A stretch of 64,000 nucleotides of DNA, taken from positions 1 through 64,000 of the forward strand of contig NBIV01000217.1 of NCBI GenBank assembly GCA_003194525.1. Direction: 5' to 3'. A program made the translations under genes and the position numbers. How positions within the stretch are numbered: position 1 is the first letter of the stretch; each line of letters opens with the position of its first letter. The notes below the pieces were generated by a model, which saw nothing but the letters and a program-made list of their open reading frames with translations, made no database searches and was not told where the DNA came from. Below, piece by piece: positions 15,077 to 64,000 of this stretch. Source of the stretch: Gracilariopsis chorda. Taxonomy: Eukaryota > Rhodophyta > Florideophyceae > Gracilariales > Gracilariaceae.

Positions 15077-16380
15077 TCATTTCAAAAGTTTACAAAACGG
15101 CAAAAAGCTGGAGCCGTGCTGCGTCGAAAAGTAAACGTCTCCAACTGGAGCAATTCCTCTGCCGGTACCGTCGATAGATGCCAGGACTTGCTGGTGTTCA
15201 GCACTAGTACTTGCCACAATTTCGGTAGGTGCATGTTCCCGAAAATGCCATTGCAATCGAGCAACTTCAAGGCGATGTAACGTTGAGGTCCATTTGGGGC
15301 CGCTGGATGTCATCACACACTTTCCAAGCTTCACGTCCCACAGCCGTCCGTAACGCCGTCCATCATACGATGCAATCATGGCACCACCTACGTCCGGTTG
15401 CACGTGAAGCACTTTGCAGTCGTGGACGAACGGGTGGCCGATCGCCTTCCCGCTGGCGACATCCCACACGCGAACTGTGTGGTGGTAAGACCCAGACACC
15501 AGTCGCTTCCCATCTCCACTGAACGCTAAACTTCGTACTTCCTCCGTGTGTTCCTCAAGAGGCGATCCCACGTGCTGTCCTGCGTGCACATCCCACACAA
15601 GCACGGAGGTACCGAATGGACAAAAGGCGATTCGCGCTCCACCAGCGCTCATCGCCACACACGTGTCCATCGGTGCATCACACGTGACAGAGGTCACCCC
15701 ACCGCTGTCCACGTCCAACACGTAAACCCATCTGTCAAAAGAAAACACCACTCGCTTGCCGTTGTCGTTGCCGGCCACATTCCCAAAATATCCGGCGCCT
15801 GCGAGATGCTCAGCAACGGCTTCGACGCTGTTCGCGTCCCACACTCGAACAGTACCGTCTCTCGATGCGGACTCAATGCGATTCGCGTCCGCGCTGACCG
15901 CAACACACTCCACCTCTTTCGTGTGAGCTGCCAGAGGCTGTCCAATGCGGTCGCCGCTCTCAGCGTCCCACAGCCGGACGCACCCATCAGTACACCCGCT
16001 AACTATTTTCGAGCCGCGACCACAGTACGCAACACACCGCACTTCCTCCGTGTACCGATCCGGACCATCGGCAGTGTCCGCGTTTTCCACGCTCCACACT
16101 CGAACAGAATCATGAGATACTTCAGTCACAACCTCGTGGCCATCTGCGCTCAGTCCGACCGTTTTTTTAATACTTTGCGTATCCTTCGAACGGCTCGATC
16201 TTCTCACCTGTCTCTGTGTTCCACACAAAAACCGTATCGTCCAAAGAGCTAGATACAAGACGATATCCATCTGCGCTCAGAGCGACGGACACTACAGATT
16301 CGGTGTGACCCCTTATCGTTACTACAGGCGTTTCGGCACTGCGCAACTTCCACACCCGAATGACACCAGACTCCGAACCG

Positions 16381-16413
16381 CTCACGAACCGCTCACGAAC
16401 CGCTCACGACCCG
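16381..16413 (-). repeat. 11-bp tandem repeat (3 units) causing a frameshift
   Basis: Units of CTCACGAACCG (+ strand) occur twice, followed by one CTCACGACCCG. The intact paralogue has a single unit at the matching site near 62695. Two extra units add 22 bp and shift the frame. Confidence 0.75.
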
Positions 16414-16559
16414 CCTTCCATCTCTACTTACCGTAGCACACGACACCTCATCATCCCGCACTTCAGGCGGCGTTGTCATCATCGCACCCCACTCTCTGTC
16501 CCAAATGCGAATACTATACCTCCACAACGGTTCCACGGACCGCTCAGAAGGAGTCTCAC

Positions 16560-16745
16560 CGCCCGATTCATCTTCACTGCCTTCATCACTTCTGTCGCTT
16601 TCATTGACCAATTCATCCTCCACTCTTACATCGCTGTGGCTGTTGTCCTCGATCAATTCATCTTCGTTTTCTTCATTTGGGCTCCCACTCTCATGGAGCA
16701 GCTCATCTTCTTTTCCATCGTTGCTGCACCTCTCACCGAGCGAAT
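16560..16745 (-). repeat. 45-bp coding minisatellite, acidic insert in WD40 domain
   Basis: The motif TTCATCTTC or its variants recurs at 16567, 16612, 16657 and 16702, exactly 45 bp apart. On the coding strand each unit gives about 15 residues beginning EDEL or EDES. The intact paralogue near 62590 lacks the whole block. Confidence 0.8.
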
Positions 16746-19629
16746 CCTCTTTCCTTCCTTCATCGCTGCTGCTACTCCCATTGGAGTAGTCACTGTTTGT
16801 TCCTACCTCACTGCTGCGATGCCATCCGCGACCACTGACACTAACAATCACGTTTCCGTCAAAGCTCACAGCGAGGCATTTCGTGTCTGTTTCTTCCGGA
16901 TTCCCTACAAGTTGATTTCCGACAGCGTTCTCACTGGATGCGTCCCAGACACGGACATAGTCCCTACGTGATGCACTCACGACTTTTTTTCCGTCACCAC
17001 TTATTGCAACATACTGGACGCGATCTGCACTTTCGAAACAGTTCTCAAACTTGTATCCAGAGTCTGCATTCCTCACGACTATTCTTCCATCACTGTACCC
17101 AATCACTACTCTTTTCTGGTCGTCCGAGAATGCACCACACGTACATTCCGTCCGACTTGTCGACATCGTTGGCGACGACCGCTGACCACCCGAGGTATCT
17201 GCATGATGCCCCAAGGAGGAAGCGTCGTCGAGATCGTTCAGATCCAGCCTGTGTACTTTCTGGCTTCCATCCATCTTATAATACTCCGTAACATGACAAT
17301 CTTCTTTCCGATCAGTCCAAAGGATTCTTTTAATATCTCCACCGTGAGATATGCATCGAATTAGAACGCAATTCCCAAACTGTATAGTTTCTGAAGCCGC
17401 ACCCCCGGCTTCTTCAAGGATCCCAACCGACGGTTTCACCCATGGTCTAGGCGCGTGTTCTTCTATCTCCGACAAAAAGATTTATGTGCGCTCGCAGTGC
17501 TTGGCGTACCATCCCATTCTTCCATACAGCTGGAACCAAGCCTCGTACGCATTCTCGTTAACAGCAATATAGCTCTTTCGAGCCGCACTTCCCACAAGCT
17601 TCAAATATCTTCCAATCCTTGTCTCATTACTCTTATCCTTCTCTGATACTTGCAGTCCGATCGCCAATTCCTGGTCTACTCCGCTGACCCCGACCTTCTG
17701 AAGACGCATCACAACCCATTGCGCCCTCTCCAAAAGCCATAAGAGTTCTTTGCTTTCTCCAGCCCCTTGCAGAATCCGGCAAACATTATCGTGGATAAAT
17801 CCGTCATCTTCAACGTTCCACCACGGTCTAAACGTGTATCCCTTTTCTATCTCATCCGTATTCCCCTGAGCATCATTTACTTCACTGGTAAAGCACCTTT
17901 TTGCCAATGCCATGAGACAACTGAACGCTTTTCGTGATTGTCGACTCCTCCTTGCATTATCTTGGGCTGCTTCCGCTTCATCACTCACAACGTCTGTGTT
18001 CGCATGTCGCTCCTTTGGCATGTAGTTGTCAACCAGTGTTCCAAACCACCGCCTCACTTCGTATATGTCCGAAGCCTTTCGCATTGCTATGTCTAGCACC
18101 AAGTCGTGCAGTTGCACATAAACCTTGTTCGAGCTTAACGTCATCTGTACAAGACACACCTCATCAAATCTTTCAGCAACTTCTCGAGCCTCTCGCAGCT
18201 CGCCCAAGTTCCATAATCTTTGCAGAACCTGCCCGCTCACCTTTTGTTGCTTCCGAACTACACAAAACCCTCGAAACATTTCTTCAAAACTCTTCGTGAA
18301 TCCTGTCCCCTTTTTCAGCACGTCCAGGGAGCTATCAACCACCAGTCGCACTTCCCCATACCGGTCTGCGCTTGCACCAATAATGTTCTCTTCCTTTGAT
18401 ATCAGATTGCGATAGTAATCGATCCATGCATCCTGTTTGTTCCTCTGTCGTCGGTCGTAATATTTCTTCACCGTAGCTCCAGCAATCCCGATAGCCAGAG
18501 GAAGTCGCTTGCATATGTCAAGAATGCCGTCAAATGCATTCCTGTTTTCGGAACACAGCTTAGTATCAGTGCCGAACCCCGCGTGCGTCAGTAACATATG
18601 TTCAGCAATTTGCCCATGCGCCGCTCTCGCTTCAAATGAAAGTTCCTTGTCCGCTCCCCTCAAGAAGCGCTTATCCCTCGTTGTATACACCAATAGGCTT
18701 TCGTTGTGCAAAATGATACCCAGATCTCCGAAAACATCCGACGTGCTTCCATTCACCCACCATATGTCATCAACTAGAAACACATATTTGTGTGGCTTAA
18801 ACCAACGTGCCGCCTTGTCGTATGCCTCTTGAACTTTTCCGACTCCCCTTATTGCGTTTGCTAATCGAACTCCCCCAGTTATTTCTACAGCCCGAGCGAT
18901 TTCGCTGATCATATCAGTCAGATGTGAGTCGTTTCCAAGAGAAATATACAGAACGCCATCAGAAAACCTACGTTTGACATCCTCCTCCCTCGCCAGTCCC
19001 CGCAAAGCGCATGTTTTCCCAACCCCTCCAAGTCCAGATGCCACGATTCCAACCAATCCGCTGCTACTCCCTTCCAAAACGGCAGCTTTCAGCCTCCCCT
19101 CACAAGTGTTCGTTGTAGTGTAATCTAACGTCAATCGAGGTGGATTCGGCGGTACATTGCTACCCGGTACATACGACTCTGGTACTTTCTGATCACTGGA
19201 GGCGTCTTCCTTGAGCCATGGTAGCACTGTCCCAGTCAAAAAGGTGTGGAAGCTTGTAACATGCTGACTACATTCTTATAGGATGTCGTTCACTCTCTTG
19301 ACGGGGTTCGTCACACCGACATTGCTTATTTCATCTCGGAGAGGTTCCAGCCTCTCTTTGTTGGCCTGCAGTTAGGACCACATCCTGTCCAGTCTACTCC
19401 GTACATATTCGTCGCGTAGAGGTACACCTCCGCCTAAATTGATATGTTGTCGCGCCACTACAATAAGCTGTAACGCCTCCTCATGTTCCTCCAGCAGACT
19501 TTCATGCAGGTCAACGGTGTTCGCAGCCATTTCCTTTCGCTCCACATACCGTTTCACGTACGATTCGGCCCTGTCAACCAATTCGAATGCTCCAGTTATT
19601 ACACCGATTATCGCATCTGGAGCCGCCAT

Positions 19630-25139: not shown

Positions 25140-25936
25140 TGTAGTGCAATGCCCGGATGCAGGAGTGCACCGAAAGATGTTCGGGATCCTTCCTCGTTAG
25201 AGATGAGCGCAGTTGGGTAGAGCCCTCCCAGAAGTGGCACGACTCTGTCGGGTGGTAAGGCCGAGGCCACCCGTCGCGACTTGCGCAGGGTTGTTGAGGC
25301 AAGAATCGGGTATCTGCAGGAGCGGTTTATGGGGGTGGTCGTCTTCTAGAGAGGTGAAGTTTCCACGTTAGTGACACGCACGAACACGAGCCGTGGGTAG
25401 CGGGAAAGCCACCCTTTAAAGGGAAAAGAGAAGGGGGAGTTGAGTCACGAGTGTGGTGACGAAGACTAACGGCAGTGCCGGTAAATAAACATTATACAAG
25501 GCGAACACGAAGAAAATTGGAGTAACAATCCGAATACTCGGGTTCTTTAGATAGGCAAGGGGGTTAGACTTCCCGTATGCGACGGTGCTTCCCTCCAAAG
25601 AGGAGTAGAGAACACGCGAAGGCGGTGAGGTCTAGAGCCAATTCCCCAGGTTAGGGTCCCTTGTTGGGGAAGTTTTACTTGTGCGACGGCAACCCGCCGG
25701 CGCACTAAGTACTAACCATCCCAGAAATGGGTGTAAAAATAATAAATAGAATTAACTAAATTACTTCACTTTGGTGGTTCATGCCCACTACTGTGGCCAA
25801 CCACCAATTGACTCTTCCGTGTCCCACGTGTCAAATCCACTATTAGTGGTCGTATTTCATGCAATGACTACATTACCGAAACATTCAGGAGATGAACCAA
25901 GTACCAAGAATCCCTCTCTGAGGGCATTGCACTTCA
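25140..25936 (+). repeat. LTR-like element L1 (797 bp)
   Basis: It begins TGTAGTGCAAT and ends ATTGCACTTCA, an 11-bp nearly perfect terminal inverted repeat with TG...CA ends. It is related along its length to 27611-28514, clearest in the first ~150 bp and in the last ~350 bp, which holds AATAATAAATAGAATTAAC. The flanks (CCACT before, TCAAC after) do not match, so it is either a solo LTR with lost duplication or the 5' LTR of the copia element that follows, with gag deleted. No clear primer-binding site follows it. Confidence 0.6.
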
Positions 25937-25967
25937 TCAACGGCAAAATATTGCACAAAACCTCAGC

Positions 25968-27322
25968 TCACACAGCACGCACGTTCTCTCGCTCCTGCCA
26001 TAAACGAACATTACCTCTCTCACCGACTCCTCGTCCCACGGGCGAGCCTTCCACGACAAGAAGTCCACCTCTACCCACCGGCAAGTCGAAAGCTCCACCC
26101 ATATCCCCCACGCACTCCCACGAGGTCCCCACCCCTACCCCCCACAGTCTATCAAACCCCATCAAAGCACGACACAACAGCATACTACAACTGGAAGCCC
26201 ATAAATGGCACCTGAAACTCAACCATACCAATCCGGGCAAATTACACCTCACGGCCGCCAAACGCCTAATACCCACCATGCCATCGCAACTACCCAGTGA
26301 CATCAAACTCAACTGCAGTGCGTGCGACCACGCTAAGCTTTACCCCTCGCCACACAAAAGAAAACAGCACGCTTACCCCAGGGGCTTACGTCAGCTCAGA
26401 CACGTGCGGCCCTGTGAAACCCACCTCGGCACACGGCAACAACCACATATTACTGATCGTATGTGCATCCAGCAAGTTCGCGTTCGCGTATTTTGTGCGG
26501 GAACGCAAACAAATCCCTCCATATATAGATCAAACTCTGCATCATATCCGACATGGCATTCACCATCCCATTCAGCACTTTCGCAGCGACAACGCAAAAG
26601 AATACCAATCCACAATAATGCACCAAATATATAACAAGCACGGAGTACAACTCCATCTCCGCACACCACACCAACCTCAAGAAAATGGCATAGCCGAACA
26701 ATTAAATCGCACCATCATGGAATTGGTACGTGCACTACTCAAGACGGCGGGCCTAGATGATACGTATTGGAAAGATGCCGCACGCGACACAGTCTTCAAA
26801 TACAATTTGCTGCACCACGACGCTACCAACAGCTCACCCCACGCCCTGTGGTACCACCACACCCCAACCCTCAAGCACATATACACATTCGGCCAAGTGG
26901 GCACCATCCCCGTGTATGGACCCAAAAAGAAGTTAAAACCTCGGGCCGATCCTGCCCGATATATGTATGCCACTTCATTAACCCAGATAGTGGTTCTGAA
27001 TCTCCGAACACGTCAATACCAGAACATACGAGCCAGCAACTTCCATCCGTACTCCACACACACCGACCCCACTGCCACAGCACCTAGGGCATTTATTGCA
27101 CGCAAACCTCACAAACAAGCCATCCCTCTTGAGATCACCATGGACACCGCACCACCTGCCAATCTAGCGCAAGCTCGCATGCATCCCGACGGACAGGCCT
27201 GGCAACAGGCCCATGACGCCGAACTGGACAACCTTGACAATCACAGCAGCATCAAATGGTTGCCAGCTCATCACCGGCCACCACTCGAAGCAGTCATACC
27301 GCTCATGATGCGATACAGGTAA
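25968..27322 (+). pseudogene. Copia integrase remnant
   Basis: The first frame (to 26634) shows a GAG-pre-integrase finger: WHLKLNHTNPGKLHLTAAK and LNCSACDHAK. A frameshift near 26350 moves to the frame ending at 27322: GAYVSSDTCGPVKP (first catalytic Asp), IQHFRSDNAKEYQS (second Asp), HQPQENGIAEQLNRTI (Glu), then YWKDAARDTVFKYNLL and the PDGQAWQQAHDAELDNL link to the RT. The three acidic residues persist, but the reading frame does not. Confidence 0.75.
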
Positions 27323-32411: not shown

Positions 32412-32599
32412 GGTGGCTGCTCCCAGAGTCCCAGAGCATGACAGATGCTTAGGCCTTCCTGCGTAATACTTAAGAGTCAACTCGTGCGTGCTTGCGTAAA
32501 CCCTCCGACAACAGAATTCTGTATCAATTTTAGTTTACACATGGACATGAAAACTTGCCAGATTTCTGTGAGTGGCTCGCAGAATTCCGCGCAGGCGTA

Positions 32600-33208
32600 A
32601 GCTCTCTAATCTAGAGTTAGTCGAGGTGGGTTTGGAGGTACGTTACTGCCACGTACGTGCCGGTCTCATCCGGGCAAGATTACTGTTTCATTCCCATCAC
32701 GTGCGTCCTCAACGGCTGCATTTCTCTCACATGCACTATCCACATCTTCCGTCCTTTCAAGTGCTGGACGTACAGATATTTTGCAGTACTAACGCATCTC
32801 GGTAACAAACGCCTGACATTCTTCTATATCTCCCCGCATGCTCTTCACCTGAATCATGCAATTGGCCTGTTCCACTTTAGTAGTTTGTGACCACAGATCT
32901 TCAAGCCTGGCTCCCAGCCGCTCTTTGTACTCTCCAAGTCTCCGGTGTATGGTGTTATCAACCGAATCAATGTCATGCGAGCGGCTGCTCTCTGCTTCGT
33001 TAATGTCTTCTAGAGTGTTCTCGTACATACGTAGCAGATCACGTAAGAGTGTATTATTGGCAGCCACCAAGTCCCTGCGCTCAAAGAATTTCTTAAAGTG
33101 CGATTCCAGTTTGTCAGCCGCCTTACTCACTCCAGTAACAGCTGCTCCGGCCTTTTTAAATCTGCAGCAGGCGTAGACCTGAATCAATGAATCCAGATCT
33201 TCTTGCAC
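32600..33208 (-). pseudogene. NLR-like N-terminal fragment, copy N3
   Basis: From 33208 it encodes a helical module (KAADKLESHFKKFFERRDLV, then DLLRMYENTLEDINE) with the same pattern as the N-terminus of the pseudogene at 44848. After a stop the frame continues SVRPALERTEDV and SNVPPNPPRLTLD, matching the linker just before the P-loop of the intact gene at 59707. The match ends at about 32600, before any NB-ARC sequence, where the transposon begins. Confidence 0.65.
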
Positions 33209-42639: not shown

Positions 42640-44848
42640 GTTGCACGCTTTACCGCCGTTGGTTCAGCTCTCCGGGAAGACGGCATACAACCCGCGTGAC
42701 GGGCGCCGCAAATGTCTTCGACAAGTACCGTCATCGCCTACAAGAAGTTTTACGATTTGTATCATACGCGGGCCAAGGTCTGCTAAGTGCATGATGTTTA
42801 TGCACTCGATGACCCTGCACAACGGCCCGGTAGTAGCGCTATGCATTGGCGAGAAGAACACGTCTCCAACTCGGAAAACACCGCTGTGCGCAGATGCCAA
42901 CGTCTGCTAGTGTTCGGCGTCTGCATGTCCTTCCCTTCGTATGGCTCTCATACCAACCATGTTTTTAGGCCGCTCATGCCAACAAAACCGAGCAACGCTA
43001 AAACGATGGAGAGTGGCTGTGCACTCAGCTTCTGAGGATGTCATCACGCATTGGCCGCCGCTCAGATCCCATAATCGTCCATGACCTCGTTCATCATACG
43101 CACAACCCGCAAGCCGTGTACTTTGGATGGCACATCATACACTTCGCAGGCGTGGAGGAAGGGGTCGCCGATCAACTCATATTTCATTTCGCAGTCGGTC
43201 GAGGGCAGGGGATATATTTGTGACTTGAAACGTTGGCGCTCTGAAGACACGCATAAGGCAGGTTTGAATTCATCCTGTCGTGGTGGCCCATAGTTTGCAC
43301 GGTCCCTCCCGTACTGTCCATATTCCACATCCGAATAGTGCCATTGTCAGATCCGCTCACCACCTGCCCGCCATCTGCTGATGGCCACACACCTCACATC
43401 GTCCTTCTGCATCTCGTCTGGCACCGCTATTTCGCTACCAACATTCCTGTCCCAGACGTATATAGCAGGGGTAATGTACATTCGGCAACAAACAATTCGC
43501 TTGCCGTCCAAGCTCACGTCAAGACCTCTGACTCGCCCGCCTACCTTCATTGTCTGAAATGGATGTCCGGCAGCCTCATGATTGTGAAGGTTCCAAATGC
43601 ACACACGCCCGTCCTCCGATCCGAAAACCGCGGTCCTTCCATCGCCACTAATTGCAACACAGGTGGCACGCCCAGTATCGTATGCTCCAGAAGAAACCGA
43701 TTCGCACCGGAAAAAACGACGAGCAACTGTTCCAGGGCATTCCACAGAGTGATTAACCTCATACCCAGAATCTATGTCCCACACGACAACTCTGCCATCG
43801 TGATGCCCAGTGACCAACTTCTTCAGGTTGCCCGAGAACGCACCACACCTAAAGTCACGTGACAACGGCAACACATTGTTTCGTCCAGAGCTCCCACGAC
43901 CTCCCGAAAGTTCGCTCTCAGTCACGGCTGAACCGAGCTTGTACGTTTTCCTGTTTCCATGGATTCTATTGTATTCAGTAACAAACCCCACCCGATTTCC
44001 ATCTGTCCAAAGAACCCTTATGACATCTCCGCCATGACATATATCGACTATTTTTCTGCAGGATTCACCAATTCGTAAGCTTTCCGACACTGGTCCTCCG
44101 GCTTCGTTGAGAACACCAACCGAAGGCTTCACCCAAGGTCGAGGCGCACATTCCTCCACCTTACATGTAAGCCTTCGTGTCCTTTCGCATTGCTCTGCGT
44201 ACCACATCACTCGACCATACATTTGAAACCACGCCTCATACGCGTTCTCCACCACGAAACCACAACTCATTCGAACTGCACTTCCAATCAGCCTCAAGTA
44301 TCTTACCAATTCTGCCTGCCCACCGCCGCTTCCCTCTGCAACTTGTATTCCTATCGCCACATCCTGTTCCACACCGTTGATTCCGCTTTTCTGAAGACGC
44401 ATTACGATCCATTGCGCCCTCTCTAGCAGCCACACAACCTCTTTCGTTTCACCGGCTGCATGCAGAACGTGGCACTCGTTGTCATGGATGTATCCATCAT
44501 CTTCCACTTCCCACCACGGTGTGAACATAACCCGCCCTTCGCTGCTTGCTTCGATTTCTGACCCAGCAGTCCCACGCTGTCTTGTATTGACTCTAGTTCT
44601 TGGTGTTCATCTTCTAGCCATTTTTGGTGCCCAGCTAGCCTTCGTTTGATATTCCTATCCTCAGAATCGATGCCATACAAACAAGTTTTGCGTAGTTCTT
44701 TAAGTTCTTCAAGGGCGTTTTTGTACATCTCCAAGAGATCGTGCAGCTGCTTCATGTTGTCAGTGAGAAGATGCCGTCTTTCGACGAGGTTCTTGAGGTA
44801 TAAATCGAGTTTGTCCAACCCTTTAAGAGCAGCAGAAGCTCCAGCCAT
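42640..44848 (-). pseudogene. NLR-like pseudogene lacking NB-ARC, copy N2
   Basis: ATG 44848 (MAGASAALKGLDKLDLYLK) opens the helical N-terminal module to about 44590. The frame then changes and joins directly to sequence that in N1 and the intact gene lies after the NB-ARC: MFTPWWEVEDDGYIHDNEC, ENAYEAWFQMYGRVMWYAE and APRPWVKPSVGVLNEAGG. WD40 repeats follow to 43347 (FGSEDGRVCIWNLHNHEA). Further WD40 and tail fragments (VSGSDNGTIRMWNMDS; GDVFFSPMHSATTG) continue in other frames to about 42640. About 1.3 kb encoding the P-loop and Walker B is missing, so it cannot act as an NTPase switch. Confidence 0.75.
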
Positions 44849-52577: not shown

Positions 52578-53972
52578 TCACTTCTTCTTCGAAGACTTGA
52601 TCTTAATCTTGGGCGCCTCTCTGACAAACGGCAGAAAGTCCATCCCCAAATAAGGCTGCAACACCTCCGGAACGGCCACCCCATCCTCCCGTTGATACGT
52701 TTCAAGTATGCAACAAATCGTTCTAGTTGTGGCACACAGCGTCGAATTCAGCATGTGCACGTATCGTTTATTCGTATCGCCCATTTTCTTCACCCCGCAT
52801 CTCGTCTCCAGCTTCCTCGACTGGTAGTCGGTGCAATTTGACGCAGACACCAATTCACGATATTCGCCTTTTCCACCACTGGCGGCAGGGAACCACGCCT
52901 CCAAGTCATACTTTTTCGAAGCCGCATCGTTCATCGCTTTAGACACAATGCTAATCGTCTGATACGTCAATCCAAGCGTTTGGTAAAACTCCTCCGCGTT
53001 GTGAATCATCGTTTCCAACATGTCGTACGAAGCGTTGTCGTCGGGCGACGTCACGCAGAACTGTTCAATCTTGTCAAACTGATGCACTCGGAAAATGCCC
53101 AGTTGATCGCGCCCATGCGAGCCCGCCTCCTTTCTGAAGTTGGTAGAAAAGCCCGCATACTTGCGGGGAAGTTCCTTCTCCTCCACCCATTCATCGGCGT
53201 GATACACGCATATCGGCTGTTCACTCGTGGCGATGAGGTATTTATCACCGTCGCCGGACACCTTGTAGAGCTGCTCATCAAAGTCATCCAGTTGCGCGCA
53301 CTTTGCCATTTGATCCTTCTCCATAAAGTACGGTGGTTGTATCGGGTTGTATCCTCGTTCGCTCAAAAATCGCAAACTGTATTGAATGATAGCCATGTTC
53401 AACATCACAGCTGGTCCCATCAGGTAATAACCCCTGCTACCAGCGCAGGTGACGCCTCGACTATACTCCACCCCGCCGATCATGTACAATAAATCAACGT
53501 GCGTAAGACGCTTGCCACCCGCCGCAGGGCGTTCTCCACTCTCCGGCCACACGCGTTCAACGCGGTTTTGCTCCTCATCTTCAGCGACAGGAACGGTATG
53601 GTGCAGCACGTTTCCAATACTCTTTAAAATTGTATCTCGTTCGTGCTCAGCCACAGCCAGTTTTTCCTTCAGATCGGCCTCATCTGCGACGAGTGTTTGC
53701 TTTTGTTCCTTGATGTTCGCCTCCTTGGATCCGTCGGGGTCAATGTTGGTTTCAGGCTTCTTGCCCTTGATTTTGATCTCCTTCAGTTGCGCGTTCAACT
53801 CGTTCCGCTTCTTGGATATGCAGTCCAGGTCGTATCGAACGGCGCGCCATTGTTTGTCCCATTTGATGACATCGTCTACGAGGCTTTCCTTCTTGAACCT
53901 TCTTCGTTGACTTTCTCGCACGATTTCTGGATTGCCTCCGCGATCCTCTCTGAACAGGTTGATGTCCAGCAT
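52578..53972 (-). CDS. SARS: Seryl-tRNA synthetase, cytosolic type
   Basis: 464 codons from ATG 53972 (MLDINLFREDRGGNPEIVRE), the standard eukaryotic SerRS start. An N-terminal long-helical arm for tRNA-Ser (about residues 40-110, KKRNELNAQLKEIK) is followed by the class II core. Motif 2 is FRKEAGSHGRDQLGIFRVHQ, and motif 3 is SNCTDYQSRKLETR with later AVPEVLQPYLG. A Lys-rich tail (KIKIKSSKKK) is typical of the eukaryotic enzyme. It charges tRNA-Ser with serine in the cytosol. The frame stays open upstream to 54326 without a stop; this could be 5' UTR or an N-terminal extension. It is divergent from the MadBub gene and convergent with U1-C. Confidence 0.95.
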   Translation of the reverse strand: MLDINLFREDRGGNPEIVRESQRRRFKKESLVDDVIKWDKQWRAVRYDLDCISKKRNELNAQLKEIKIKGKKPETNIDPDGSKEANIKEQKQTLVADEADLKEKLAVAEHERDTILKSIGNVLHHTVPVAEDEEQNRVERVWPESGERPAAGGKRLTHVDLLYMIGGVEYSRGVTCAGSRGYYLMGPAVMLNMAIIQYSLRFLSERGYNPIQPPYFMEKDQMAKCAQLDDFDEQLYKVSGDGDKYLIATSEQPICVYHADEWVEEKELPRKYAGFSTNFRKEAGSHGRDQLGIFRVHQFDKIEQFCVTSPDDNASYDMLETMIHNAEEFYQTLGLTYQTISIVSKAMNDAASKKYDLEAWFPAASGGKGEYRELVSASNCTDYQSRKLETRCGVKKMGDTNKRYVHMLNSTLCATTRTICCILETYQREDGVAVPEVLQPYLGMDFLPFVREAPKIKIKSSKKK

Positions 53973-54764
53973 TGCAACGTGCAAGAAGAAAGATGTGTTG
54001 CGCGTGTTTTTCAGAAGATGCGCACCTTGCTTGATGAGGCGGGAGAATGGTCTGCTACTCTCCTTCACCACGATGCGGCTGAGCGGGGCACAGGATGAAG
54101 ATGAAGTGGGTGGGCTCCTCTTATATGCAGGCAGAGTGTTCTCGTGGCAGGGACGAACAAGAGGCGTGAGGTGTTCACAATCGACCACCGGCAGGCTCCG
54201 AGCAGAAAAGTTACACACCGCGCCGTCTGCCGCGATGATCAACAGCGCCGAATTCGCCCCGCTTGCCAACGTCATGCGTTCACACATAGGGCAGCAATCG
54301 TGACGTGGTCCACGTGGCCGACACACCCAGCGATCACAGTTGTCGCCCCCTTCCCATCGCCCCCACCAGTAGCCTGTGCACTCCCTCGAGTAGCCCCACC
54401 GCCCCCGCGCTTCTTGGCTCTATGTGCATCCCGATCGCCTCTTCCGTACCCATCGCCGCGTGAAAAGACGGTTGCGTGTTGCATACGCGTACGAACGGTA
54501 GCGTTGGTATAACTCTCCCGTTTTGAACGCCGTGCAGCTTGCAGCTCGCATTCGCAACGCGGTTTGAAATTTCAAACGGCTTATATAGCCTCCGTTGATG
54601 CGGTACCCCTTCGTCCCCACCCACTCCTGAATCACGGTTCCGCTATTCTCAGCTGCTTTCCTTCTGCCTGCGGTTCAGCCCCATCACTTCCAACTGCGGG
54701 AACATCCCAACAGCCACCAACCACATTCTCGTCCCCCTCTTTCCAACCCGCCCCGCCTCACACC
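53973..54764. promoter_or_regulatory. Divergent promoter region, SerRS / MadBub
   Basis: About 790 bp separate the two start codons. On the SerRS side the minus frame is open to 54326 and encodes Ser/Arg-rich sequence (SSRPFSRLIKQGAHLL). On the MadBub side there is a C/T-rich leader directly before ATG 54765. No clear TATA box is seen. Confidence 0.5.
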
Positions 54765-57584
54765 ATGTCAGCCCCAGTCTGGGAAACCCACAAGGAGAAC
54801 ATTCAGCCCCTTCGTCGCGGCCGTCACACAAAGCTCCTCGAAAAGGCTCTCATAGGCTCCAAACAAGACATCGACGCCGAGCGACTTCACCGGGAAGACG
54901 CCATCAAACGAGCCGTTCAAGATAATGCCGCCCCCCAACAAATTTTGGATGCCTACTTGGAGGCCGCCTTCTTCATCTCCGACCACTATCCAGCCGGGTC
55001 CAAGCACTTGGTCAGCGTTGTGGAAGACGGGTGCAGAAAATATGCAAAGGACGATCGCTTTCGAGATGACATTCGCTTCGTGCGCTTGTGGGTTCTGTAC
55101 GCAGAGATGAGAAGCGATAAATTGGACGTCTTCAGCTACATGAAACGAAGACGCATTGGACAGTCGTGGACTCTGTTTTACGAAGCCTATGCTGCCACTC
55201 TTGAGGCGGCACGTCAGTATGAGCGCGCCGAAGACATCCTTGCGCTCGGGAAGCAGGTGAATGCACAGCCGCAAGAACGGTTGCAACGACGGGTACGCGA
55301 GTTTCAGAACCGTATGGCCGCGCGTGCCAGACGGGAGCAGAAGAAGAAGGAGGACGCCGAAGCCCGAAAAAACGACGACGCAAAACGAGAGGCCGCGCGA
55401 ATGCAGAGAAACACAATTCGTGCCGAACCGTCCTTAGCGTCCTCTATTCTTTCTCAACAGAATGCTGAGGGCAATCAAGCCTCCACCGCGAAGAACCAAC
55501 GCGTTCGTCCCGCTTTGGGAGAAATTTCAGAACGACAGGCCAAGTCTGGAATAAGACCGTTCTCTTCTCAACCTGTTCATCCTGCGTCGAGCTCACGAAC
55601 TCCCCTGCAGTCTGTTCAACTTAACCACGATGCGTCCCAGGGCGGTGCAAACAAATTTGAGATCTACTCTGATTCTGTCGAACCTTCGTCGCGTTCAGAG
55701 CCCCAGGACGACGAAGACAAGTTATCATTTGCAGCGCTTGGCAAACTTGATGACGTTGTTAAAGAAGATCATGGTCGTCTGCCCTCGAAATGGGCTGGAC
55801 ACACTTTGCCTCAGAATCAAGCCGTGGTTCAAAAGCTACAGAAGCGAGCTCTGTCTTCGGGACAAATGTCCTCCCGGTTCACCATTTTCCAGGATGAAAA
55901 CTATCAACGTGGGGCGTACAGTCCTGCAGGAAGTCCATCCCACCAAATTCCCGCGCTGCCCGAACATGCAGAGGAAAGAAATAACGCTGAGAATGTCAAT
56001 GCCCCATCCCCTGAACTGTCCAGGGGAGATCCAATTCCGCAACAAGCAGACAGGTTTAACCGGCCGCCATCTCCTACTATTAACACTAAGATTGCTATGC
56101 GCGAGATCGATGACATGTTTAACTCCTCGCTACCACTACAACAAGTCAACCTCAAAGTACCTTCGACACTGAATCCAGCACGGGCTGAGCGCCCTGATGT
56201 GCAAAGCTTCAATGTATTCAATGATGAGAATACAGCTCAGAACACTACCACTGGCGGCGAACCGAAGACCTCTGACGAACCCGTCAAAGACATGCGAAAA
56301 AGAGTTCTGCAACCCTTGGACCTCCACCATTCTGCAGCAGAACCTGCTACAAGTTCGACGAGCTTAGCCCCAACGTCTGAAAACCAATCCAACTTGAACC
56401 AACAATCGCAATCTCGAACCGAAGAGCACCATGGCGAAATGCTACCTCGCAGCGACACCACATACAGTGAAACCGAACTTTCTGAGTTTTTCAGAGCCTG
56501 GGTTATCGAACAGCCATCGTACCAATACATTGGTAGTACAAAGGTCGACATTGAACCCGATACCATAGTTGAGCTTCCATGGCGTGTACCCTTGACTTTT
56601 TGCGTTGATCCGTCCCAAAGCGCTGGTCGTTGTGGACGTTCGACGGTCTTCTTTGTGGAGGACATGGAAAATGAGCTCGGAGTATCAGGGGCCACGATGC
56701 CAGGGACACACGATGAAGATGAGATTCCTCTTTTGGTCCTGAAGCAATCATCTCCGCCGAACGTTTGGGAGTACTACATCTATCAGACTATCCAAAAACG
56801 GCTTCGAAAGAAGCTTATCCAGACCGATAGCATTCCACTGGCCTTGGGCTTTTCACAAGGGAAGAGAAGCTCATTCTTAGTGTTGGACACAAAGGGTATT
56901 AATTCTCTTTCGGATATTATGCCACACGTTCCGGATAGGGTCATCCCAGAGGCGGTGGCAATGCTCTTCACAGTGGATTTGCTGAAAACGTTGTGCATTC
57001 TACATGGTATTGGAATAATTCATTCTGACGTTACTCTTGAGAATGTTTTGTTCAGATGGAACACAGCTATTGAGTTGACGGCTGAGGCGTACTGCCCGTC
57101 TGGGGATGAAGGTTGGTCGGCATGTGGAATCCTCTTGGTCGATTTCAACAACTCGATTGACGCCCAGCACGAGCGCTTTGAAGGGAGTGGCATTGAAGCT
57201 GTGGTCCAGCATTCTTCAACCGTTGACCCGTCCTTCATTGATCAACAGTACCGAGAAGCGAATTCGAAGTCCTGGGGCTTCAGTGCTGACTGCTTCGGAG
57301 CAGCTGTTTGCGCGTCAAAAATGCTCGGCGTGACAACACAAAACTTGGTCTGTGGTCCTGTCGCCTTGAGACACTCTGAAGTGTGGAAGAACTTCTTCGA
57401 CGACGCATTGCAGCTGGGACAGCTTGCTACTCCGAATGAAACCATCGCGATGATGAGACGTAATTGTGAAGCGATGGAGCGCATTCTTGCGAACAATACC
57501 CACCTCGGTTTCGTGGTTAGAAAGCTGTACAGGGTGATTTCCTCCCTCGAAATAGACACAACGCGAGTAATGAAGGGCATATAA
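54765..57584 (+). CDS. MadBub (BUB1/BUBR1/Mad3) spindle-checkpoint protein
   Basis: 939 codons from ATG 54765 to TAA. A KEN box lies at residues 10-12 (HKENIQP), followed by the Mad3/BUB1 TPR region (LDAYLEAAFFISDHYPAGSK, RFVRLWVLYAEM, FSYMKRRRIGQSWTLFYEAY). The disordered middle has three ABBA-type motifs: FEIYSD (~298), FTIFQD (~372) and FNVFND (~482). The C-terminal third is a BUB1-like kinase: VLK lysine, IIHSDVTLENVLF (~753) and LLVDFNNSIDA (~792). The catalytic-loop Lys is Thr and the DFG Gly is Asn, so activity is doubtful. The protein should bind Cdc20 and inhibit APC/C at unattached kinetochores. One gene carrying both KEN and kinase parts is the undivided ancestral state. The GLEBS (Bub3) motif was not identified. 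Confidence 0.9.
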   Translation: MSAPVWETHKENIQPLRRGRHTKLLEKALIGSKQDIDAERLHREDAIKRAVQDNAAPQQILDAYLEAAFFISDHYPAGSKHLVSVVEDGCRKYAKDDRFRDDIRFVRLWVLYAEMRSDKLDVFSYMKRRRIGQSWTLFYEAYAATLEAARQYERAEDILALGKQVNAQPQERLQRRVREFQNRMAARARREQKKKEDAEARKNDDAKREAARMQRNTIRAEPSLASSILSQQNAEGNQASTAKNQRVRPALGEISERQAKSGIRPFSSQPVHPASSSRTPLQSVQLNHDASQGGANKFEIYSDSVEPSSRSEPQDDEDKLSFAALGKLDDVVKEDHGRLPSKWAGHTLPQNQAVVQKLQKRALSSGQMSSRFTIFQDENYQRGAYSPAGSPSHQIPALPEHAEERNNAENVNAPSPELSRGDPIPQQADRFNRPPSPTINTKIAMREIDDMFNSSLPLQQVNLKVPSTLNPARAERPDVQSFNVFNDENTAQNTTTGGEPKTSDEPVKDMRKRVLQPLDLHHSAAEPATSSTSLAPTSENQSNLNQQSQSRTEEHHGEMLPRSDTTYSETELSEFFRAWVIEQPSYQYIGSTKVDIEPDTIVELPWRVPLTFCVDPSQSAGRCGRSTVFFVEDMENELGVSGATMPGTHDEDEIPLLVLKQSSPPNVWEYYIYQTIQKRLRKKLIQTDSIPLALGFSQGKRSSFLVLDTKGINSLSDIMPHVPDRVIPEAVAMLFTVDLLKTLCILHGIGIIHSDVTLENVLFRWNTAIELTAEAYCPSGDEGWSACGILLVDFNNSIDAQHERFEGSGIEAVVQHSSTVDPSFIDQQYREANSKSWGFSADCFGAAVCASKMLGVTTQNLVCGPVALRHSEVWKNFFDDALQLGQLATPNETIAMMRRNCEAMERILANNTHLGFVVRKLYRVISSLEIDTTRVMKGI

Positions 57585-59706: not shown

Positions 59707-62700
59707 ATGGTAGAACCGGCAAGCGCTGCGGCAGCGGCGAAAGCATGGGACATAGGCTTTTTAGGATTGTCCGAACTGGTCAAACGAATAGACTTGGTCG
59801 AGGACAACAAGGAGAAGCTGCCTGAGCTCTCAGAAATGTACGACAACGTCCTCAAAGAAGTAGACGATTTGGTTAAACATGACGTCTTTCATGATATAGC
59901 TATTTGCAACCAGAATGTAAAAAGCAGACTTCAAGACTACAAGAAAAGATTGCAAAACAATCGTGACAAGGTAAGGGCACTCGAGAATGAAGTGAAAAGC
60001 ACGAAGGTCTGGGAGTGCTGGAAACGAGTGGAAAAGCCGCGAAAAGTTATGGAAGAATGTCGAGCAGTGACCACCGAGTTTCGTGGATACTATGACGCAT
60101 CTGTGCGGCCTGCACTTGAAAGGACCGCAGAGGCAAAGGCAGCGCGCGAAAGGACTAATCTGGAGAGGGCACAAGAAAGAACTGCGGTTGTTTTCAGTTC
60201 CGAGCCAGACTCATATGTTGTGCGCAGCAACGTCCCTCCAAATCCACCTCGATTGACCCTAGACTACACTACAGAGAACACTTGTGAAGGAAGACTGAAA
60301 GCCGAAATCCTTCGTTCTCTACAAAGCAGCAGCAGGATTGTCGGAGTCGTGGCATCTGGACTTGGAGGGGTTGGGAAGACATGCGCTTTACGGGGACTGG
60401 CGAGGGAGGAGGATGTCAAACGTAAGTTTCCTGATGGCATTCTGTATATTTCCCTTGGAAACGACTCACATGTGAGTGATATGATCAGCGAGATCGCTTG
60501 GGCTGTAGAAATAACGGGGGGAGTTCGATTGGCAAACGCAGTAAGGGCAGTCGGAAAAGTTCAAGAGGCATGCAACAAGGCGGCACGTTGGTTTAAGCCG
60601 CACAAATGTCTGTTTCTAGTTGATGACATATGGTGGGTAAATGGAATCACGTCGGACGTTTTCGGAGACCTGGGTATCATGTTGCACAGAGAAAGCATAT
60701 TGGTGTATACAACGAGGGATAAGCGCTTCTTGAGGGGAGCGGACAAGGTAGTTTCATTTGAGGCAAGAGCGACGCATGGGCAAATTACTGAACATATGTT
60801 ACTGACGCACGCGGGGTTCGGCACTGATACTGAGCTGTGTTCCGAAAACAGGAAAGCATTTGACGGCATTCTTGACATATGCAAGGGACTTCCTCTGGCT
60901 ATCGGGATTGCTGGAGCTACGGTGAAGAAATATTACGACCGACGAGAGAGGAACAAACAGGATGCATGGGTCGATTACTGTCGCAATCTGATATCAAAGG
61001 AAGAGAACATCATTGGTGAAAGCGCAGACCGGTATGGGAAAGTGCGACTGATGGTTGATAGCTCTCTGGACGTGCTGAAAACGAGTTCAGGATTCACGAA
61101 GAGTTTTGAAGAAATGTTTCGAGGGTTTTGTGTAGTTCGGAAGCAACAAAAGGTGAGTGGGCAGGTTCTGCAAAGATTATGGAACTTGGGCGAGCTGCGA
61201 GAGGCTCGAGAAGTTGCTGAAAGATTCGATGAGGTGTGTCTTGTACAGATGACGGGAAGCTGGAACAAGTTTTATGTGCAACTGCACGACTTGGTGCTAG
61301 ACATAGCAATGCGAAATGCGTCGGACAGATACGAAGTGACGCAGTGGTTTGGAACACTGGTGGACAACTACATGCCAAAGAGGCGACGTGCGAACACAGA
61401 AGTTGCGAGCGATGAAGCGGAAGTAGCCCAATATAATCCAAGGAGTCGACATTCACGAAAAGGGTTCAGTTGTCTCATGGCATTGGCAAAAAGGTGCTTT
61501 ACCAGTGAAGAAAATGATGCTCAGGGGAATACGGGTGAGATAGAAAAGGGATACACGTTTAGACCGTGGTGGAACGTTGAAGATGACGGATTTATCCACG
61601 ATAATGTTTGCCGGATCCTGCAAGGGGCTGGAGAAAGCAAAGAACTCTTATGGCTTTTGGAGAGGGCGCAATGGGTTGTGATGCGTCTTCAGAAGGTCGG
61701 GATCAGCAGAGTAGAGCAGGACTTGGCGATCGGACGGAAAGTATCAGAGAAGGATAAGAGTAATGAGACAGCGATTGGAAGATATTTGAAGCTTGTGGGA
61801 AGTGCGGCTCGATTGAGCTTTGCGGCTGTTAACGAGAATGCGTACGAGGCTTGGTTCCAGATGTATGGAAGAATGGTATGGTACGCCAAGCACTGCGAGC
61901 GCACACAAATCTTTTTGTCGGAGATAGAAGAACACGCGCCTAGACCATGGGTGAAACCGTCGGTTGGGATCCTTGAAGAAGCCGGGGGTGCGGCTTCAGA
62001 AACTGTACAAATTGGGAATTGGTATCACATACTGTGCATATCGCACGGTGGAGGTGTTGTAAGCATCCTTTGGACTGATGGAGGACATGCTTATGTTACG
62101 GAGTATTATAAGATAGACGGAAGCCAGAAAGTACAAAGGCTGGATTTGAACGATCTTGCCGACGCATCCTCCTTGGGGCATCATGCCGACAACTCGGATG
62201 GTCAGCGGTCGTCGTCAACGATGTCCATAAGTTGTACGGAATGCACGTGTGGTGCATTCTCGGACGACCAGAAAAGGGTAGTGATTGGGTATAGTGATGG
62301 AAGAATAGTCGTGAGGAATGCAGATTCTGGATACAAGTTGGAGAACTGTTTCGAAAGTCCAGATTACTTGGAAGTGATTGCCATAAGTGGTGACGGAAGA
62401 ACAATCGTGAGCGCATCAAATAGGGACTATGTCCGTGTCTGGGACGCATCTAGTGAGAACGCTGTCGGAAATCAAGTGGTAGGGCATTGGGAGCAAGCAG
62501 ACACGCAATGCCTCGCCGTGAGCTTTGACGGAAACGTGATTGTTAGTGTCAGTGAGGGAGGAAGAGACAGTGACTACTCCAATGAGAGTAGCAGTATTCG
62601 CATTTGGGACAGAAAGATGGGTGAGATGATGACAATGCTGCCTGAAGTGCGGGATGATTATGTGTTGTGTGCTACGGTGAGTAGAGATGGAAGGCGGTTC

Positions 62701-64000
62701 GTGAGCGGTTCGGGGGATGGTGTCATTCGGGTGTGGAAGTTGGGCAGTGCCGAAACGCCTGTACTAACTATACAGGGTCATACCTGGGCTGTGAAGTCCG
62801 TCGCTCTGAGCGCAGATGGAAACCGTCTTGTCTCTAGCTCTGAGGATGGTACGGTTTTTGTGTGGAACACAGAGACCGGTGAGAAGATCGAGCCGTTCGA
62901 AGGATACGCAAGGCATGGAGAACGGGTCGGAGTGAGCGCAGATGGCCACGAGGTTGTGACTGAAGTATCTGATGGATCTGTTCGAGTGTGGAGCGTGGAG
63001 AACGCGGACACTGCCGATGTTCCGGATCGCTACAGAGGACGAGTGTGGTGTGTTGCGTACTGTGGTCGCGGCTCGAAAGTAGTTAGCGGGAGTGCTGATG
63101 GGTGCGTCCGGCTGTGGGACGGCGAGAGCGGCGACCGCATTGGCCAGCCTCTGGCAGCTCACACGGGAAAGGAGGTGGTGTGTGTTGCGGTCAGCGCGGA
63201 CGCGAATCGCATTGTGTCCGCATCGAGAGACGGTACTGTTCGAGTGTGGGACGCGAACAGCGGCGAAGCCGTTGCTGAGCATCTCTCATCCGCCCGAGGT
63301 TTTGGTATTGTGGCCGTCAACGACGACGGCACGCGAGTGGTGTTTTGTTTTGAAGAATGGGTTGACGTGTGGGACGTGGACAGCGATGGGGTGACCACTG
63401 TCACGCGTGATGCATGGTTGCGCACGTGTGTGGCGATCAGCGCTGATGGAGCGCGAATCGCCTTTTGTCCATCCGGTCACTCCGTAGTTGTGTGGGATGT
63501 GCACGCACGGCAGCAAGTGGGGTCGCCTCTTGAGGGACACACGGACGAAGTACGAAGTTTAGCGTTCAGTGGAGATGGGAAGCGACTGGAGTCTGGGTCG
63601 GGCGACCGCACAGTTCGCGTGTGGGATGTCGCCAGCGGGGGGGCGATCGGCCACCCGTTCGTCCACCACTGCGAAGTGGTTCATGTGCAATCGGACGTAG
63701 GTGGTGCCATGGTTGCATCGTATGATGAACGGGGTTACGGACGGCTGTGGGACGTGAAGCTTGGAAAGTGTGTGCTGACATCCAGCGACCCCACATGGAC
63801 CTCCACGTTACATCGCCTTGAAGTTGCTCGATTGCAATGGCATCCTCGGGTATTTCCAACAACCGAAATTGTGGCAAGCACTAGTGCTGAACACCAGCAA
63901 GTCCTGGCATCTATCGACGATACCGACAGAGGAATTGCTCCAGTCGGAGACGTTTACTTTTCGCAAAAGCACGGCTCCAGCTTTTGGCCGTTTTGTAAAC
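59707..64000 (+). CDS. NB-ARC-WD40 (NLR-like) protein, intact, runs off window
   Basis: From ATG 59707 one frame stays open to the window end (1431 codons, no stop). The last codons (HGSSFWPFCK) match the end of paralogue N1, whose stop follows about three residues later, so almost the whole gene is present. The N-terminal ~180 residues are charged helices (LGLSELVKRIDLVEDNKEKL; KSRLQDYKKRLQNNRDKV), perhaps a coiled coil or four-helix bundle. NB-ARC follows: GLGGVGKTCALRG, CLFLVDDIWWV, LVYTTRDKRF and GLPLAIGIAGA. After a helical middle (PWWNVEDDGFIHDN, APRPWVKPSVGILEEAGG) come about a dozen WD40 repeats (e.g. DGTVRVWDANSGEA). STAND NTPases of this layout are ligand-triggered switches; an immune or self-recognition role is inferred. 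Confidence 0.88.
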   Translation, partial: MVEPASAAAAAKAWDIGFLGLSELVKRIDLVEDNKEKLPELSEMYDNVLKEVDDLVKHDVFHDIAICNQNVKSRLQDYKKRLQNNRDKVRALENEVKSTKVWECWKRVEKPRKVMEECRAVTTEFRGYYDASVRPALERTAEAKAARERTNLERAQERTAVVFSSEPDSYVVRSNVPPNPPRLTLDYTTENTCEGRLKAEILRSLQSSSRIVGVVASGLGGVGKTCALRGLAREEDVKRKFPDGILYISLGNDSHVSDMISEIAWAVEITGGVRLANAVRAVGKVQEACNKAARWFKPHKCLFLVDDIWWVNGITSDVFGDLGIMLHRESILVYTTRDKRFLRGADKVVSFEARATHGQITEHMLLTHAGFGTDTELCSENRKAFDGILDICKGLPLAIGIAGATVKKYYDRRERNKQDAWVDYCRNLISKEENIIGESADRYGKVRLMVDSSLDVLKTSSGFTKSFEEMFRGFCVVRKQQKVSGQVLQRLWNLGELREAREVAERFDEVCLVQMTGSWNKFYVQLHDLVLDIAMRNASDRYEVTQWFGTLVDNYMPKRRRANTEVASDEAEVAQYNPRSRHSRKGFSCLMALAKRCFTSEENDAQGNTGEIEKGYTFRPWWNVEDDGFIHDNVCRILQGAGESKELLWLLERAQWVVMRLQKVGISRVEQDLAIGRKVSEKDKSNETAIGRYLKLVGSAARLSFAAVNENAYEAWFQMYGRMVWYAKHCERTQIFLSEIEEHAPRPWVKPSVGILEEAGGAASETVQIGNWYHILCISHGGGVVSILWTDGGHAYVTEYYKIDGSQKVQRLDLNDLADASSLGHHADNSDGQRSSSTMSISCTECTCGAFSDDQKRVVIGYSDGRIVVRNADSGYKLENCFESPDYLEVIAISGDGRTIVSASNRDYVRVWDASSENAVGNQVVGHWEQADTQCLAVSFDGNVIVSVSEGGRDSDYSNESSSIRIWDRKMGEMMTMLPEVRDDYVLCATVSRDGRRFVSGSGDGVIRVWKLGSAETPVLTIQGHTWAVKSVALSADGNRLVSSSEDGTVFVWNTETGEKIEPFEGYARHGERVGVSADGHEVVTEVSDGSVRVWSVENADTADVPDRYRGRVWCVAYCGRGSKVVSGSADGCVRLWDGESGDRIGQPLAAHTGKEVVCVAVSADANRIVSASRDGTVRVWDANSGEAVAEHLSSARGFGIVAVNDDGTRVVFCFEEWVDVWDVDSDGVTTVTRDAWLRTCVAISADGARIAFCPSGHSVVVWDVHARQQVGSPLEGHTDEVRSLAFSGDGKRLESGSGDRTVRVWDVASGGAIGHPFVHHCEVVHVQSDVGGAMVASYDERGYGRLWDVKLGKCVLTSSDPTWTSTLHRLEVARLQWHPRVFPTTEIVASTSAEHQQVLASIDDTDRGIAPVGDVYFSQKHGSSFWPFCK

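Follow-up and report, generated by a model that had tools for sequence, protein, structure and literature searches.

A candidate family of diversifying NLR-like receptors with WD40 repeats in the red alga Gracilariopsis chorda

INTRODUCTION

Proteins that combine an NB-ARC nucleotide-binding domain with WD40 repeats, in part preceded by a TIR domain, have already been reported from red algae (PMC6928737, PMC9806590, PMC8891106). In the available sections of two reports, no NBS-LRR receptors of the land plant type were found in these organisms (PMC6928737, PMC8307928). For Pyropia the numbers are small, with 7 NB-ARC+WD40 rows in the published table, and three such genes were upregulated 1.5- to 2.2-fold upon oomycete infection (PMC6928737; as far as the accessible parts go). 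The other close parallel is fungal: in the accessible account of the Podospora anserina incompatibility genes HET-D and HET-E, positive selection acts on codons 7, 9, 25, and 27 of the repeat, which flank the constrained codons 8 and 26 (PMC1805685). Here, we describe a gene of the red alga Gracilariopsis chorda at positions 59707 to 64000 of contig NBIV01000217.1 (assembly GCA_003194525.1). The 64,000 nucleotides analyzed, positions 1 to 64,000 of that contig, are called the window below. We propose that the gene belongs to a family of rapidly diversifying intracellular STAND/NLR-type non-self receptors with an Apaf-1-like chassis, and put the probability of this reading at about 0.74. An earlier sequence-only reading of the window had recognized an NLR-like gene and called it notable in an alga, which is too strong in light of the red algal reports cited above.

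RESULTS

An intact gene with the domain order of Apaf-1

The gene is a real and intact NLR-like (STAND) gene. Its frame starts with an ATG at 59707 and is open to the end of the window (1,431 amino acids [aa]); on the contig beyond, three extra codons follow, the last of which ends at 64008, and the stop codon ends at 64011, 11 bases beyond the window end, so that the protein has 1,434 aa. The single-exon structure claimed in the sequence-only reading was therefore borne out, as were the full set of NB-ARC landmarks, each of which was located in the protein, and the estimate of about twelve WD40 repeats. The features, all on the plus strand, are as follows; the motif names are those to which we take the blocks of the gene to correspond.

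59707..64000 (+): whole gene in one exon, lacking only its final three codons and the stop; in order, helical module, NB-ARC, winged helix, arm, and 12 WD40 repeats
59707..60225 (+): helical module at the N-terminus, aa 1-173; without a Pfam or PDB family; closest loci L029 and L027
60226..60267 (+): conserved linker SNVPPNPPRLTLDY, aa 174-187, close to the point where the N-terminal and NB-ARC histories part
60310..60930 (+): NB-ARC, Pfam match over aa 202-408 (PF00931; E = 2e-10, over the cut-off)
60358-60381 (+): P-loop GLGGVGKT, aa 218-225
60604-60636 (+): Walker B motif, aa 300-310
60694-60723 (+): TTRD block, aa 330-339
60880-60903 (+): GLPL block, aa 392-399
inside 61273-61308 (+): LHD at the MHD position (MHD-type motif), within aa 523-534
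61111..61302 (+): APAF-1-like winged helix, aa 469-532 (Pfam E = 2.8e-4, below the curated cut-off)
61579..61974 (+): helical arm up to HAPRPW; weak APAF1_C match at aa 625-695 (E = 0.085) plus family-conserved stretches
62194..63753 (+): twelve WD40 repeats, aa 830-1349, by a profile built from the family; 43-residue unit with hypervariable positions 16, 17, 19, and 35

With PF00931, the P-loop, Walker B, GLPL, and MHD-type motifs, the gene is a STAND NTPase of the NB-ARC (AP-ATPase) class, and its order of NB-ARC, winged helix, arm, and WD40 is that of the Apaf-1 family. The APAF1_C match of the arm, below the Pfam cut-off in the gene, is over the cut-off in the relative L016. When a profile of the region from NB-ARC to arm (15 family members) was compared with solved structures, Apaf-1 was the best match (E = 2.8e-22), followed by plant NLRs (for example, RPP13-like 4).

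Hypervariable positions of the WD40 repeats

The variable positions were found in the L010 subfamily, six close paralogues in which most of the WD40 part is built from units of exactly 43 residues. In L019, the nine units have a mean identity of 81% (protein) and 87% (DNA), and repeat numbers in the subfamily, counted by profile and including partial repeats, are 5, 6, 7, 9, 11, and 11. By eye, the repeats of the gene itself have visibly diverged from one another; the L010 subfamily is the only place where near-identical repeats were observed. Entropy over the 23 distinct units among 38 of this subfamily ranked positions 35, 17, 19, 28, and 16 as the most variable ones. We chose 16, 17, 19, and 35 as hot positions; position 28, which ranked above 16, and the moderately variable position 37 (4 of 12 columns in the paralogues L041 to L045, 5 of 12 between the gene and N1) were left out. 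N1 is the nearest relative of the gene:

15080..19629 (-): N1, a nearly full-length pseudogene; NB-ARC 88% and WD40 about 80% identical to the gene, with an N-terminus of the L034 type

Between the gene and N1, 31 of 47 hot residues differ, compared to 61 of 430 elsewhere in the repeats. When the register was shifted by 1 to 42 residues, the fraction of differing hot residues never exceeded 0.37, whereas it is 0.66 in the true register; an earlier count, in which 6 overlap residues were counted twice, gave a Fisher p of 6e-14. The same bias was seen in the five intact paralogues L041 to L045, in which 38 of 48 hot columns but only 69 of 412 others vary (p = 2.6e-18), with all 10 pairs pointing in the same direction. 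In more distant pairs the bias is weaker (67% versus 43% between the gene and L034; 73% versus 49% between L033 and L034).

The residues R1-2, R1, and D-1, described in the sections available as the top-face binding residues of WD40 blades (G-beta positions 16, 18, and 34; PMC3419727), map to unit positions 17, 19, and 35. Placement of the variable residues on the top face comes from the repeat register and the accessible parts of the published mappings (PMC3419727, PMC1805685), not from a model; a single-sequence model of the WD40 part with the arm had a predicted local distance difference test (pLDDT) score of 45. Judged from these alignments, the presumed sensor propeller is hypervariable at positions that include the top-face hotspots of its WD40 blades. 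This is the strongest evidence for the proposed function, and it was missed by the sequence-only reading.

Selection and repeat exchange

If the variable positions are targets of diversifying selection, nonsynonymous divergence (dN) should exceed synonymous divergence (dS) there but not in the remainder of the repeat. Indeed, approximate counting estimates for the hot codons in four pairs from L041 to L045 gave dN values of 0.35 to 0.63 and dS values of 0.10 to 0.14, whereas at the other repeat positions of the same pairs dN was 0.036 to 0.047 and dS 0.053 to 0.070. Pooled over two non-overlapping pairs, the excess at the hot codons had a p of 2.7e-5. The hot codons of L010 and L025 agree (dN 0.63, dS 0.34), and altogether dN exceeded dS at hot codons in five of six paralogue pairs. 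Over whole domains, the six pairs of L041 to L045 had dN/dS ratios of 0.95 to 1.32 in the WD40 part and, in five of them, of 0.15 to 0.52 in NB-ARC. In the remaining groups changes were few and the ratios scattered (NB-ARC 1.7 in three pairs, with 6 versus 1 changes; WD40 0 to 3.67 where defined). By a counting method, diversifying selection on top-face positions, which marks the fungal HNWD genes, was thus found in intact paralogues, not in alleles of the gene.

The paralogues also share repeats. L042 and L043 are 99 to 100% identical in DNA over aa 0 to 700, and yet the repeats at aa 1019 to 1105 of L042 are 100% identical to those of L044, and L043 equals L045 at aa 1149 to 1189. These identities show that repeats move between genes. 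L042 and L043 were considered as allelic contigs, and the pattern of upstream DNA, of which about 380 bp next to the gene is shared and little beyond, argues for paralogues. L006/L007 and L012/L013, which are near-identical to the edge of the compared DNA and may be alleles, were excluded from the selection argument.

Several observations weigh against selection for diversity or limit its reach. For L041 to L045, the hot positions were not chosen blind, since the alignment of these paralogues had been inspected beforehand; the gene and N1, by contrast, had not been compared in this respect when the positions were chosen. Repeat exchange blurs which repeats correspond, and near-identical repeats may have been mis-assembled. 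In L010-L025, dN at the other repeat positions (0.046) is slightly above dS (0.040); in L022-L025, dN at the hot codons (0.13) is below dS (0.21); and L042-L044, with a WD40 ratio of 0.95, has an NB-ARC ratio of 1.21 (12 versus 3 changes). Finally, N1 is a pseudogene, so that part of its difference from the gene may be neutral, and comparison of the gene with the intact but older L034 gave a dN/dS of only 0.52 for the whole WD40 part (0.20 for NB-ARC). Therefore, the case for selection is made by the L041 to L045 group.

Exchange of N-terminal modules

In blocks of 40 aa, the gene and N1 are 25% identical at aa 121 to 160, the only N-terminal block compared, and 78 to 95% identical in each block from aa 161 to 720. 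L034, on the same contig (about 118 kb), is 17 to 22% identical to the gene up to aa 160 and 62 to 88% identical at aa 161 to 560; over aa 801 to 960 of the WD40 part, identity is 29 to 50%. The statement of the sequence-only reading that relatives are close in the NB-ARC linker and WD40 parts and differ at the N-terminus thus describes N1 well but does not extend to the WD40 part of L034. For the N-terminus of the gene, the nearest loci are L029 (45%) and L027 (41%); for its NB-ARC part, they are N1 (88%) and L034 (77%).

The sequence-only reading had proposed a phylogeny of NB-ARC versus N-termini, and the two histories do differ. We built trees from 16 N-termini and 15 NB-ARC parts (L029, whose NB-ARC is incomplete, was left out of the latter). 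In the NB-ARC tree, the gene groups with N1 (support 100/100) and both are joined by L034 (99.9/100), whereas in the N-terminal tree N1 groups with L034 (97.8/100) and the gene, L027, L029, and L009 are split from the rest (95.4/98). Approximately unbiased (AU) tests on the N-terminus rejected gene+N1 (p = 1.5e-4) and gene+N1+L034 (p = 5.5e-4), and those on NB-ARC rejected gene+L027+L009 (p = 7e-61) and N1+L034 (p = 1e-5). The conflicting trees together with the AU rejections make it well supported that N-terminal modules were exchanged relative to NB-ARC. No match was found between the 2 kb upstream of the gene and the upstream stretches of the other loci (about 1 kb for short loci), and therefore the donor locus of its N-terminus cannot be named.

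How different are the exchanged modules? We compared 38 proteins, which are those of the 50 loci that have a P-loop pattern within a frame of >300 aa, a filter that lost the TIR loci L017, L018, and L021 (P-loop GKK) and broken copies. By N-terminal similarity, 32 of the 38 fell into one group and 6 stood alone; the conserved linker was part of the stretch compared, and for L016 and L037 the match to the gene covers only 57 to 58 aa. Most of the helical modules are thus diverged versions of one homologous domain. A truly different effector, TIR, was found in a few loci outside the window: in L018 and L021 it replaces the helical module ahead of the same linker, and the genome has three PF01582 (TIR) matches, on contigs C152, C413, and C428, each of which also bears an NB-ARC match. 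Accordingly, the modular effector change that the sequence-only reading had inferred holds in that N-terminal parts were swapped, but the modules in the window are not different effector types.

On the TIR loci, we further note that the match on C428 lies at 21103-21426, while L017, L018, and L021 lie on C891, C413, and C152. By eye, L017 is a fourth, frame-broken TIR-NB-ARC copy. L017, L018, and L021 have in common an in-frame stop after ...TLIGN, located at the variable linker behind the winged helix, and a P-loop that reads GKK rather than GKT; a copy with an open frame (L021, 611 aa) may thus yield a truncated TIR-NB-ARC protein.

Identity of the N-terminal module

A structure model from three window sequences had helices at aa 4-57, 65-98, and 101-162, at modest confidence (pLDDT 69; predicted template modeling score 0.39). 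Foldseek with this modest model returned nothing at E = 0.001 or better (best E, 0.83). A Pfam search of the N-termini of 20 members gave scattered weak matches, with no family in more than 3 of the 20 among the best 25 of 45 families, and a PDB sequence profile gave nothing under E = 0.009, with no NLR, MLKL, or HeLo names among the 43 matches listed. CARD was absent from the N-terminus of the gene (full Pfam list) and from the 20 members (best 25 of 45 families), and a HET domain was found neither in the gene nor in nine further proteins nor in the 20 members (best 25 of 45 families). One of the 20 members matched WASH_WAHD (E = 6e-4, under the cut-off), which we discounted as probably a chance hit of a coiled coil. 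With respect to plant CC, HeLo, and MLKL domains, the N-terminus is helical in a weak model and has no Pfam or PDB sequence match; this model agrees with the helical N-terminus suggested in the sequence-only reading.

The family in the genome and in the window

A six-frame search with PF00931 of the 91.3-Mb assembly (1,081 contigs) gave at least 54 NB-ARC matches, a lower bound, 32 of them within stop-free frames of ≥1,000 aa; the gene is therefore not a single functional locus. By hand count, 25 of the 54 sit on 10 contigs bearing two or more. Three of the 54, on C151, C152, and C153, were left out of the locus analysis. WD40 matches accompanied NB-ARC in seven of nine other proteins scanned (L005, L014 [weak], L015, L016, L028, L030, and L035); of the other two, L003 matched no families besides NB-ARC and other P-loop ones, and nothing was found in L037, which is short. 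The downstream WD40 parts were examined in 6 of 30 short loci, among which L022 ends in a frame unlike that of its relatives. L014 (199-1557) is an NB-ARC gene with an unusually long N-terminus of 453 aa and no known domain there; the N-termini of L015, L028, L030, and L035 are also unplaced.

The three dead relatives claimed for the window proved to be broken copies. In N1, the N-terminal part is interrupted by two in-frame stops and the WD40 part contains frame changes; the other two are

32576..33157 (-): N2, remnant of an N-terminal module; best match L009 (46%)
42805..44848 (-): N3, N-terminal stub continuing into arm and WD40; no NB-ARC left, frames disrupted

By eye, N1 also carries a long acidic repetitive insert within the WD40 part (16393-17475, -) that is missing in the intact gene. 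N2 ends directly after the linker NPPRLTLD, near the module-exchange site, a possible trace of the exchange mechanism.

A few kilobases from N1 lie transposase frames of DNA transposons (6175-7782, -, and 8882-10897, +; Pfam DDE_Tnp_1_7 and DDE_1), and 25771-27322 contains a retroelement integrase fragment (rve, just under the cut-off) in overlapping frames. Upstream of the gene, a single-frame Mad3/BUB1-type gene (54564-57584) with a weak kinase-like region near its C-terminus adjoins a seryl-tRNA synthetase gene (52578-54326); this is a housekeeping neighborhood. Elsewhere in the genome, L051 (1495-2373, -, on a nuclear contig) has a phycobilisome-type domain in the C-terminal part of its frame and possibly encodes a plastid-targeted phycobiliprotein-like protein, and a 414-aa segment of an alpha-1,4-glucan lyase matches PDB 2x2h (831 bits; next entry, 83). 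Both mark the genome as that of a red alga, 2x2h being an enzyme of the red alga Gracilariopsis.

DISCUSSION

A receptor family that changes its recognition surface

Change is fastest on the predicted top face of the propeller, and the family has many copies, dead relatives, and exchange of repeats and N-terminal modules; the simplest reading is therefore that its ligands are changing non-self molecules. The family probably recognizes foreign molecules. Of the role in immunity or self/non-self recognition proposed in the sequence-only reading, the large family, the N-terminal exchange, and the evolutionary signatures of a recognition receptor remain, while the swap of effector types does not as worded. 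We infer that the gene is expressed and works as follows. At rest, NB-ARC would hold ADP and the WD40 propeller or propellers would keep the receptor closed. A foreign or altered-self molecule would bind the top face, where the variable residues would set specificity; nucleotide exchange would then drive assembly into a wheel, in which the helical modules, or TIR in a few relatives, would be brought together and may start a defense or cell death response. Renewal of the repertoire would come from changes at few positions per blade, exchange of repeats between paralogues, gain or loss of repeats, and swapping of N-terminal modules.

The alternative that survives best, although we consider it unlikely, is that the gene encodes a receptor for somatic fusion or parasite compatibility, like HET-D/HET-E of Podospora, and not a general pathogen receptor. 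The fungal incompatibility genes have, in the sections available, nearly the same hypervariable positions, repeat exchange, and variation in repeat number (PMC1805685, PMC2873952), and Gracilaria is described as fusing somatically into chimeras (PMC5325190). However, a pathogen receptor would leave the same signatures, and the relatives in Pyropia respond to an oomycete (PMC6928737, accessible part).

An Apaf-1-like housekeeping scaffold of cell death or development, whose WD40 part binds a conserved internal ligand and whose copies multiplied without a role in recognition, is improbable. The WD40 domain of Apaf-1 binds cytochrome c. Apaf-1 is the closest solved structure from NB-ARC to arm and has the same domain order, and Ulva, according to the accessible text, has a single APAF1_C/WD40 gene, whose null mutant was without a phenotype (PMC8891106). 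A conserved ligand should, however, conserve the top face. Instead, this face varies more than any other part, and dN exceeds dS at the hot codons in five of six pairs; many diverging copies, N-terminal exchange, and the lack of a CARD match in the N-terminus of the gene speak against such a scaffold as well. Equally improbable is a decaying multigene family in which relaxed selection and gene conversion let exposed positions drift: three pseudogenes in the window, nearby transposon genes, visible repeat exchange, and whole-domain WD40 ratios near 1 in L041 to L045 would fit, but relaxed selection cannot lift dN above dS at particular positions while dN stays below dS in the remaining repeat (L010-L025 being the exception), and long open frames hold 32 of the 54 matches.

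If the family is a set of diversifying non-self receptors, it is a concrete candidate for how red algae recognize pathogens or foreign tissue, with a recognition surface that can be tested, and the N-terminal exchange would mean that receptor and presumed executor parts are recombined in an alga. Red algal parasites can pass nuclei into host cells. More tentatively, red algae may have independently evolved a non-self repertoire of the fungal style, perhaps judging what enters via fused cells, be it from conspecific partners or as parasite cells or nuclei; this would add, besides fungi, another multicellular eukaryotic lineage that uses the propeller face as a variable recognition surface.

Comparison with known systems

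Among prokaryotes, the WRAP and other STAND-WD40 proteins of cyanobacteria resemble the family in the STAND ATPase, near-identical blades, TIR partners, many broken copies, and a proposed role in innate immunity, as far as the sections available show; unlike the family of the gene, they are prokaryotic (PMC9218822). A pattern scan of prokaryote genomes gave 28 pattern matches, none confirmed as a relative, though distant relatives are still possible, and PADLOC matches were not used; in 3 of 4 proteins these fell on the WD40 part (HEAT-ARM_XIII), and a further weak match was to LeoBC.

Unlike plant NLRs (CNL/TNL), the family has WD40 at the C-terminus, and no LRR was among the families listed (the best 25 where more matched). 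With Apaf-1 (PDB 3sfz, 1z6t, and others), the best solved match, it shares NB-ARC, winged helix, helical arm, and WD40, but it has no CARD match, is a multigene family, and has a variable instead of a conserved sensor. The same module is present in APAF1_C/WD40 proteins of Ulva (13 to 15 WD40 repeats), Tetraselmis, and Mesostigma; according to the accessible parts, Ulva has one such gene, without NB-ARC, whereas two proteins of Tetraselmis and one of Mesostigma retain that domain (PMC8891106).

With the fungal HNWD genes HET-D, HET-E, and HET-R, as described in the sections available, the family shares a variable WD40 part, repeat exchange, variation in repeat number, and broken copies (PMC1805685, PMC2873952). 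Near-identical repeats in variable number, as in HNWD genes, are present in the L010 subfamily (5 to 11 repeats), not in the gene. Codons 7, 9, 25, and 27 of HET-D/HET-E correspond to unit positions 17, 19, 35, and 37 (PMC1805685, accessible part), and the spacing is the same: the conserved V18 lies between 17 and 19, and D36 between 35 and 37. The family differs in that position 16 varies and 37 does so only moderately, and in having NB-ARC instead of NACHT, a helical N-terminus or TIR instead of HET, and an Apaf-1-like arm. NACHT (PF05729) had no match at E = 0.001 in six frames genome-wide; in the single-protein scan of L030, a match below the cut-off lay beside a better NB-ARC match. The position-level agreement with the incompatibility genes points to convergence on the WD40 top face as a source of receptor diversity.

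Closest in domain order, and in the same phylum, are the proteins of Pyropia yezoensis and Porphyra umbilicalis (PMC6928737) and Chondrus crispus (PMC9806590), which, judged by their descriptions, are very probably the same gene class. The available sections of these reports deal with presence, domains, and expression and mention neither hypervariable positions nor variation in repeat number nor N-terminal exchange; in the literature searched on algal NB-ARC, NLR, and WD40 proteins, diversifying selection in algae, or variable WD40 repeats, of which subscription papers were mostly not covered, we found no account of such diversification in an alga. Thus, NB-ARC-WD40 genes in red algae were already known, and what the G. 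chorda family adds is a WD40 diversification of the fungal style together with a well-supported exchange of N-terminal modules.

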